Source: Synechococcales cyanobacterium bin31.maxbin.ball.101
GTDB taxonomy: Bacteria; Cyanobacteriota; Cyanobacteriia; Leptolyngbyales; Leptolyngbyaceae
NCBI GenBank assembly: GCA_013298165.1
Contig: JAAFJU010000018.1
Span: forward strand, 1 to 54,151
Reading direction: 5' to 3'
Length of the DNA: 54,151 bases
Below, one piece after another: positions 43,645 to 45,195 of this stretch. Both the position numbers and the translations under genes were made by a program. How positions within the stretch are numbered: position 1 is the stretch's first letter; each line of letters begins with the position of its first letter. The notes under the pieces were generated by a model. It made no database searches. It saw only the letters and a list, made by a program, of their open reading frames with translations, and was not told the origin of the DNA.

Positions 43645-44514
43645 TTATAGAGCAACCACTAGTTCTTTGGGGAGTGGAATATCCGCCGCTTTGGGCATCG
43701 ATCGTCCCACCCCCAAAGCGATCGGTTTCAAGCTCTCAACTAACGCCTTCATCTCGGGTAAAGAGAGCGTCTGCTGAGCATCGGAGATTGCTTTGTCGGG
43801 TTCTGGATGGCATTCGATGATCAGGCCGTCGGCCCCGCAAGCGATCGCCGCCCGCGATAGTCCCGCAATTAATTCTCGTCGTCCCGCTGCATGGCTCGGA
43901 TCCACGATTACAGGTAAATGGGTTAATTGTTTCAACGCGACCACAACGCCCAGGTCCAAAACATTTCGCGTGTAGGAATCGAAGCTACGAATGCCCCGTT
44001 CACAGAGCACCACATTGGGGTTGCCGTGGGCCATGATGTATTCCGCCGCCATGATGAATTCTTCTAGGGTTGCTGACAGTCCGCGTTTGAGGAGGACTGG
44101 CGTTTGGGTTTCGCCGAGGGCTTTGAGGAGGTCGAAGTTTTGCATGTTGCGACTGCCGACTTGGAGCATGTCTACGCCCGCCGCCACCATGCCCTCGATT
44201 TGGGAAATGGCCATGACCTCCGTGACAACCGGAAGCCCCGTCCGATCACGCACAGCCGTCAAGGTTTTCAGTCCCTCATTGCCAACGCCCTGGAAGCTGT
44301 AAGGCGAAGTCCGAGGCTTGTACACGCCGCCCCGCAAAGCTTGGATATTGCCTTGAAGGTGAGCCGCGATCGTCTCCAGTTGAGCCTGATTTTCAACGGC
44401 ACAGGGACCGCCAATGACGATGATGTCCCGATCGCCGATCGTAACCTGTGAATTGAGCCGAACGATACTTTGATGATCCGGCGTACGTTTGAGCGTAAGT
44501 TTAGCGTCTTTCAT
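43645..44514 (-). CDS. aroF: 3-deoxy-7-phosphoheptulonate (DAHP) synthase
   Basis: A 289-residue enzyme condensing phosphoenolpyruvate and erythrose 4-phosphate, the first step to the aromatic amino acids. Motifs of the I-beta/KDO8PS-like type are clear: IIVIGGPCAVEN, LRGGVYKPRTSPYSFQG, QVGSRNMQNFDLLK, VLLKRGLSATLEEF, VLCERGIRSF, VIVDPSHAAGRR and IIECHPEPDKA. No fused ACT or chorismate mutase domain is present. I chose ATG 44514 (MKDAKLTLKR); an in-frame TTG at 44574 would translate the AT-rich spacer after the attenuator hairpin. Expression is probably controlled by the leader at 44571-44704. Confidence 0.93.
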   Translation of the reverse strand: MKDAKLTLKRTPDHQSIVRLNSQVTIGDRDIIVIGGPCAVENQAQLETIAAHLQGNIQALRGGVYKPRTSPYSFQGVGNEGLKTLTAVRDRTGLPVVTEVMAISQIEGMVAAGVDMLQVGSRNMQNFDLLKALGETQTPVLLKRGLSATLEEFIMAAEYIMAHGNPNVVLCERGIRSFDSYTRNVLDLGVVVALKQLTHLPVIVDPSHAAGRRELIAGLSRAAIACGADGLIIECHPEPDKAISDAQQTLSLPEMKALVESLKPIALGVGRSMPKAADIPLPKELVVAL

Positions 44515-44570
44515 GGGAAGAGTCCTGTAATGAATGGGGAAATGGTTTTGTAAAATCCAAAATCCAAAAT

Positions 44571-44619
44571 CCAAAATAAAAAGACCCCGGAACCTCTAAA
44601 AAGAGCATTCCGGGGTCTT
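44571..44619 (-). terminator. Attenuator terminator upstream of the DAHP synthase gene
   Basis: On the minus strand AAGACCCCGGAA (44619-44608) pairs perfectly with TTCCGGGGTCTT (44592-44581); CTCT and AGAG inside the loop extend the stem. It runs straight into TTTTTATTTT. It ends about 57 bp before the DAHP synthase start and about 120 bp past the previous gene's likely leader promoter, so it terminates within the leader. Its 5' arm (CCGGAATGC, 44613-44605) can alternatively pair with GCGTTCCGG (44654-44646) at the end of the leader peptide frame. Confidence 0.8.
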
Positions 44620-44641
44620 GCAAGCACGATCGCAACAGACT

Positions 44642-44704
44642 CTAACCGGAACGCCTTAAGCGCCAGTAAAAGAAGCCGTTAAAATAAAATGCTGCGAAGG
44701 TCAT
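44642..44704 (-). CDS. Aromatic-rich leader peptide of the DAHP synthase attenuator
   Basis: ATG at 44704 opens a 20-codon frame, MTFAAFYFNGFFYWRLRRSG, ended by TAG at 44644-44642. It holds five Phe, two Tyr and one Trp, with the run FFYW at codons 11-14. Codons 17-19 overlap the segment able to pair with the terminator's 5' arm. A ribosome stalled on the aromatic codons would leave that segment free to form the antiterminator; a ribosome reaching the stop would cover it. A perfect 12-bp inverted repeat (TTGCGATCGTGC at 44704-44715 and GCACGATCGCAA at 44624-44635) brackets the frame. An AAGG lies about 10 nt before the ATG. Confidence 0.75.
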   Translation of the reverse strand: MTFAAFYFNGFFYWRLRRSG

Positions 44705-44765
44705 TGCGATCGTGCCTTAAGTAAAAAATCGACAAGCCCTAAATTTGGCCCGTCACTTGCATCAG

Positions 44766-44795
44766 AAGCTAACAAACTAATTCTAAATCTGTCAA
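44766..44795 (-). promoter_or_regulatory. Candidate promoter of the DAHP synthase leader
   Basis: On the minus strand TTGACA (44795-44790), a consensus -35, is followed after 18 nt by TAGCTT (44771-44766), a weak -10. Transcription would begin near 44758, about 54 nt before the leader peptide ATG. Confidence 0.45.
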
Positions 44796-44826: not shown

Positions 44827-45195
44827 CTAGAGGCTTGATTTGGCGATCGCCTCATAATGTCCAATCACATCCGCCACCGTCAAATCCTCGATTAGACCCT
44901 CCTTGGTCTGTGCAATTTCTCGCAAAGGCCGCAAGGCTCCCAACACAATTTGAGAAAAGAAATTTCTAAAACTCCCGTCCTGGGTTTCTTGTAGGCTCGG
45001 ATCCTGATGAATCCAGGCCGTGATGGTTTCCGCAGAGAGTTCGTTAATGGGACAGGCTTGCTCAAGGGCGATCGTCTTGAGCGATCGCAGCGCATAGATC
45101 GCCACCCTTGCGGTGAACTTTTCCCGTGACGTCAACAGCGCCCCATCCACCTGATGACATTCCTCAACCGTCAAAAATTCAGTCGTACTTTCCAT
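44827..45195 (-). CDS. Conserved cyanobacterial protein of unknown function
   Basis: A 122-residue, all-helical, mildly acidic protein (FLTVEECHQVDGALLTSREKFTARVAIYALRSLKTIALEQ, later FFSQIVLGALRPLREIA, then LTVADVIGHYEAIAKSSL). It has no signal peptide, membrane helix or metal motif. I recognise only the general type of small conserved cyanobacterial protein. The DAHP synthase leader begins after it; a separate promoter there means the two need not be co-expressed. Confidence 0.65.
   Translation of the reverse strand: MESTTEFLTVEECHQVDGALLTSREKFTARVAIYALRSLKTIALEQACPINELSAETITAWIHQDPSLQETQDGSFRNFFSQIVLGALRPLREIAQTKEGLIEDLTVADVIGHYEAIAKSSL

Follow-up and report, generated by a model that had tools for sequence, protein, structure and literature searches.

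Upstream of aroF, the gene encoding a DAHP synthase, the enzyme that opens aromatic amino-acid synthesis, we found leader peptides rich in aromatic residues together with terminators and antiterminators that show compensatory changes, and these elements are conserved among related loci and specific to aroF. It is very likely that they constitute a ribosome-mediated transcription attenuator of aroF which senses the charging of tRNA-Phe, tRNA-Tyr and tRNA-Trp; no transcript, ribosome-profiling or reporter data are available for it. An attenuator of DAHP synthase had been proposed, from sequence alone, in a preliminary description of the window (the whole stretch of 54,151 nt that was analysed). 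This proposal is supported here and needs an extension: most relatives carry two such units in series, of which the window retains only the second.

Tandem leader peptides upstream of aroF

For comparison, we read the DNA upstream of aroF orthologues in 58 related genomes and at 80 named cyanobacterial loci. Among 110 related loci, 108 had upstream DNA and two did not. Nearly all loci, in two samples, showed a tandem arrangement of two aromatic leader peptides, and a separate terminator follows each of them. The first leader peptide (LP1) resembles MLNTNSYFYFWFKVVHRE and precedes terminator 1 (GTGAACCGCAGA..TCTGCGGTTT), and the second (LP2) resembles MTYFSSWFYGFYFWPRVSSG and precedes terminator 2 (CCCGGAAC..GTTCCGGG). 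Both leaders were detected by automatic filters in 95 of 107 loci. The exceptions remaining after inspection were the window and L058, with LP2 only, and L090 and L094, with LP1 only; at L023 there was too little upstream DNA for judging LP1. An additional orthologue, L158, also had LP1 only. With fixed criteria applied to held-out loci, two leaders were found in 20 of the 22 usable loci and one leader in 2/22. All three aromatic residues were present in most leaders (97/103 for LP1, 92/98 for LP2). The stop codon of LP2 lies mostly about 75-150 nt upstream of the aroF start, and terminator 1 and its pairing partner are strongly conserved in sequence (GTGAACCGCAGA..TCTGCGGTT). The LP2 frames of two related Calothrix loci (L093 and L098) lack a stop codon behind the S-G codons and apparently read on through the terminator region.

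Aromatic columns of the leader peptides retained F, Y or W despite codon change, with column 11 of LP1 being aromatic in 77 of 78 sequences (TTT/TTC/TAC/TAT). The dN/dS ratio was 0.33 for LP2 and only 0.69 for LP1, probably because the 5' codons of LP1 drift and its 3' codons follow RNA pairing. The N-terminal residues of the leader peptides were poorly conserved.

Helices were counted in alignments of 76 LP1 and 78 LP2 sequences and compared with 500 shuffles per helix, which kept the column make-up and were not corrected for relatedness. The LP1 antiterminator (GGTTCACCNGG x CCNGGTGAACC) was paired at 94.3%, with 66 cells changed on both sides (21.4 in shuffles), and terminator 1 at 97.1%, with 20 such cells (3.1 in shuffles). 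For the second unit the values were 91.0% and 28 cells (9.8 in shuffles) in the antiterminator (GTTCCGGGT x [AG]CCCGGAAC), and 91.9% and 60 cells (19.5 in shuffles) in terminator 2. For each of the four helices 0/500 shuffles reached the observed number, and pairing fell to 12%-64% when the partner was shifted by 1-3 columns. A partner-swap test likewise favoured own over swapped partners for both antiterminators (z -11.7 for LP1, -8.1 for LP2) and for a further helix, in which the start-codon region of LP2 pairs with the spacer that follows the LP2 stop (z -8.9). In the same test this start-codon:spacer helix was not found for LP1, and a local 1:2 hairpin between the middle of the leader and the antiterminator 5' strand (segment 2) gave no own-partner signal. 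The preliminary description had named missing conservation of the short frame or of the alternative pairing in relatives as grounds for rejecting its proposal. This refutation failed, as the frame was conserved at the amino-acid level and covariation was present in both the antiterminator and the terminator.

Elements of the window locus

All elements of the window lie on the minus strand. The aroF gene (43645..44514, ATG at 44514) encodes a DAHP synthase of 289 aa that lacks the regulatory, ferredoxin-like domain at the N-terminus. Upstream of it, LP2 (44642..44704) reads MTFAAFYFNGFFYWRLRRSG and ends with TAG; it comprises 20 codons, 8/20 of its residues are aromatic, and a homologous leader is present in essentially all relatives. 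No other frame of 14-30 aa in the 54-kb window had six or more aromatic residues making up 35% or more of its length. The last leader codons (R-S-G; segment 2, GCGTTCCGG, 44646..44654) form the 5' strand of the antiterminator and pair, with one G-U pair, with segment 3 (CCGGAATGC, 44605..44613), which is common to the antiterminator and to the terminator, where it pairs with segment 4. The intrinsic terminator hairpin (44581..44619) has a perfect 12-bp stem (AAGACCCCGGAA/TTCCGGGGTCTT, arms 44619-44608 and 44592-44581) followed by TTTATTTT, with an energy of -27.0 kcal/mol, and its stem covaries in relatives. Directly after the stem lies the U-tract (TTTATTTTGG, 44571..44580), which runs on into a dispersed GGATTTT repeat. 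This repeat adjoins the terminator at 44552-44580 and has about 28 other matches in the genome.

A perfect 12-bp inverted repeat (44715-44704 and 44635-44624) encloses the leader. Its 5' arm (GCACGATCGCAA, 44704..44715) abuts the LP2 start codon and its 3' arm (TTGCGATCGTGC, 44624..44635) lies between the LP2 stop and the terminator. It is the strongest start-codon:spacer helix among the examples inspected. Folding of the whole leader region was far more stable than that of shuffled sequences (z -5.6, with 0/200 shuffles as good).

These results bear out the main elements previously proposed, namely the 20-codon frame with its TAG and eight aromatic residues, the 12-bp GC-rich terminator hairpin before the DAHP synthase gene, and the inverted repeat bracketing the leader, which we now recognize as an extreme form of the conserved helix of the second unit. 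The proposed pairing of codons 17-19 with the 5' arm of the terminator held as well, with the codons corrected to 17-20. The merging of the T-tract into the GGATTTT repeat had been overlooked, as had a second terminator-like hairpin upstream of LP2 (44730..44755; 9 pairs, then ATTTTTT). This hairpin could be the end of the upstream gene or a substitute for a lost terminator 1; neither LP1 nor the GAACCGC motif was found in the upstream region of the window. Of the consensus -35 with a weak -10 that had been described, TTGACA is present (44790..44795) without a good -10, and a promoter scan did not report it; its promoter role is putative. The terminator-like hairpin sits between TTGACA and LP2 and would fall inside a transcript from such a promoter. 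The weak promoter and the intervening hairpin are evidence against attenuation in the window. Further upstream a protein of 122 aa is encoded on the same strand (44827-45195); it matched neither Pfam nor NCBIfam and had no homologue at any other aroF locus.

Proposed mechanism and rival explanations

In the proposed mechanism a ribosome would trail RNA polymerase through the leader. Shortage of any one of Phe, Tyr and Trp would stall it in the FYF..FFYW run, which would leave segment 2 free to pair with segment 3, so that the terminator would be blocked and aroF transcribed. With all three amino acids plentiful, the ribosome would reach the stop codon and hide segment 2; segment 3 would then pair with segment 4 and transcription would stop near 44575. 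Most relatives would pass through two such units serially before aroF, the window only through the second. The start-codon:spacer helix of the second unit is inferred to be probably a pause or anti-antiterminator element, comparable to the trp hairpin 1:2. Since aroF lies behind aromatic-rich leaders, each with an RNA switch, the enzyme is probably made only when Phe, Tyr or Trp is short. Stalling, the sensing of tRNA charging, the direction of the response, the role of the enclosing helix and the promoter are all inferred.

Ribosome-constrained folding was carried out for 103 LP1 and 98 LP2 units. With a ribosome footprint at the stop codon, antiterminator pairing was 0.00 in both mean and median. 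It was 0.64 (LP1) and 0.54 (LP2) with the ribosome at a middle aromatic codon, and on average 0.64 (LP1) and 0.39 (LP2) without a ribosome. Folding therefore predicts read-through for a ribosome stalled at an aromatic codon and termination once the leader has been completed. In the clearest relatives the antiterminator was permitted as long as the A-site had not passed the last aromatic codon, and not thereafter, as codon-by-codon folds of L010, L013 and L016 showed; in L050 and L084 the dips came sooner, at points where it has the enclosing helix as a competitor. At equilibrium the 12-bp enclosing helix of the window beats the antiterminator, except with a ribosome at codons 1-5 or with the upstream arm covered. 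Because of this competition the switch of the window works in these folds only with a very early stall or a covered upstream arm. It is possible, as an inference, that the cotranscriptional order, with the ribosome loaded before the 3' arm exists, removes this conflict.

The hairpins might instead merely terminate upstream genes or small RNAs in the ordinary way, with aromatic peptides beside them by chance. In favour of this, the window region is intergenic and behind a same-strand gene, terminators are common, and the T-tract of the window overlaps a dispersed repeat. However, the leaders and terminators stay with aroF, whereas the upstream neighbour has no homologue at other loci, and the frames are conserved in amino acids with last codons that covary with the terminator arm, which matched controls do not show. 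This explanation is very unlikely and already contradicted; a chance frame beside a stray terminator is ruled out by the conservation, the held-out test and the controls. The leader was also considered as an already named Nostoc sRNA; this was rejected, as the one relevant publication mentions neither aroF nor leaders nor attenuation.

We consider it equally improbable that a ligand-binding riboswitch or a protein-responsive leader acts on the same terminators with the frames being incidental. The strong sequence conservation of terminator 1 and its partner could reflect a binding site, but what is conserved consists of codons and of helices that exclude each other, and neither the window nor 12 related loci reached the gathering score of any Rfam family, so that no T-box or other known RNA family was identified there. 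Between the LP1 stop and terminator 1 there is a median of about 30 nt, mostly poorly conserved, and therefore little room for an aptamer. It is also very unlikely that the leaders mainly affect translation of aroF or mRNA stability, through a regulatory peptide or re-initiation, and not termination. Such a role would fit the frequent position of LP2 near aroF and the sequestration of its start codon by a covarying helix; however, the conserved pairings involve terminator arms with U-tracts and not the aroF start, and the peptides vary at their N-terminal residues. Attenuation at the terminators remains the preferred reading.

Specificity, known systems and distribution

Leaders were absent from all 51 loci before pheA, trpE and tyrA under the criteria used for the held-out set, and from all 19 loci before a leaderless DAHP synthase paralogue in a looser scan. 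The idea that aromatic genes in these organisms are generally attenuated was thus rejected, there being no leader-plus-terminator before pheA, trpE, tyrA or this 50%-identical paralogue. A scan of 244 genomes found the terminator-1 motif in 20, once in each, and 19 of these 20 have this aroF; a reversed control pattern was never found in the same scan. The motif was also absent from viral contigs in one scan. The AroF protein matches the 338-residue profile NF006421 from position 68 onward only, and we therefore conclude that its N-terminal domain is absent. The leaderless paralogue carries the ferredoxin-like domain PF18152. Because AroF has no such regulatory domain, the attenuator may replace feedback control of the enzyme, which is a possible inference.

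The attenuators of E. coli pheA, pheST and trp are alike in having, upstream of a biosynthetic gene, a short leader rich in the regulating amino acids and then an antiterminator and a terminator that exclude each other. They differ from the cyanobacterial system in that here the gene is aroF, three aromatic amino acids are combined in one peptide, the units are mostly two in series, and the 5' strand of the antiterminator lies within the last leader codons. The enteric aroF, aroG and aroH genes are under TyrR/TrpR control. The ilvGMEDA leader also senses several related end products with a single peptide; it contains branched-chain residues and forms a single unit. T-box leaders, too, sense tRNA charging and switch between terminator and antiterminator, but bind tRNA directly without translation. 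In the uORFC-13-1 motif, a possible attenuator of Acholeplasma aroF, the consensus includes an upstream frame containing one or more Phe codons just before a terminator (PMC8632094); unlike the leaders described here, the motif is a single unit known only from Acholeplasma and environmental sequences. According to a 2016 study of leader genes, reliable data on cyanobacterial attenuation did not exist (PMC4833913). In line with the preliminary description, which knew of no cyanobacterial case for this gene, no precedent was found in the open-access literature searched; subscription papers including Lopatovskaya et al. 2010 were outside its scope, and novelty and priority are unproven. We probably describe a known mechanism, ribosome-mediated transcription attenuation, in a form apparently unreported for cyanobacteria. 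Conserved tandem attenuators would mean that cyanobacteria use translation-coupled termination, which requires that a ribosome keep close to RNA polymerase, and would account for the control of entry into aromatic synthesis where the enzyme has no regulatory domain. They would also offer a natural case for asking why attenuators are serial and how amino-acid specificity evolves.

The distribution of this aroF was patchy, with 37 of 386 sampled genomes of the phylum encoding it at E <= 1e-100. The other three genomes of the genus of the window (G001-G003), two of them 99% complete, lacked DAHP synthases of this family at a cut-off of E <= 1e-60. The aroF genes of Vampirovibrionia (Melainabacteria; L088, L083, L102, L105, L113 and L117), which have leaders, nest among cyanobacterial aroF genes with support of 95/91. 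This nesting makes transfer likelier than descent, and Vampirovibrionia probably acquired aroF together with its leaders. A great age of the system, as might be inferred from its presence in Vampirovibrionia, is thereby unsupported.

In two Obscuribacterales loci tyrosine was the only aromatic residue in both leaders (MSARRYYYYYPNEVHPQ and MTQSYYYYRRMLRGSPR in L113; MTRKYYYYHNDEVHQM and a frame reading MSQQRTYYYYQSRTLRGSPR in L117). In L117 the last codons pair perfectly with an altered terminator arm (GGAAGTCC/GGACTTCC). We interpret these loci as a natural switch of amino-acid specificity. Taken jointly, a bolder reading would be a two-gate device, in which unit 1 would pass the polymerase unless its leader is fully translated and unit 2, with its start-codon helix, would stop the polymerase unless a ribosome stalls. 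This device would replace allosteric feedback on an AroF without a regulatory domain, would have been handed with the gene to the non-photosynthetic Vampirovibrionia, and would have been retuned in Obscuribacterales from Phe/Tyr/Trp to Tyr only. We advance this combination tentatively, with the balance leaning against its holding in full. Among the orthologues, one aroF (L219, G397:C40:657-1517) contained a single in-frame TAG and could be a pseudogene or the product of an assembly error.
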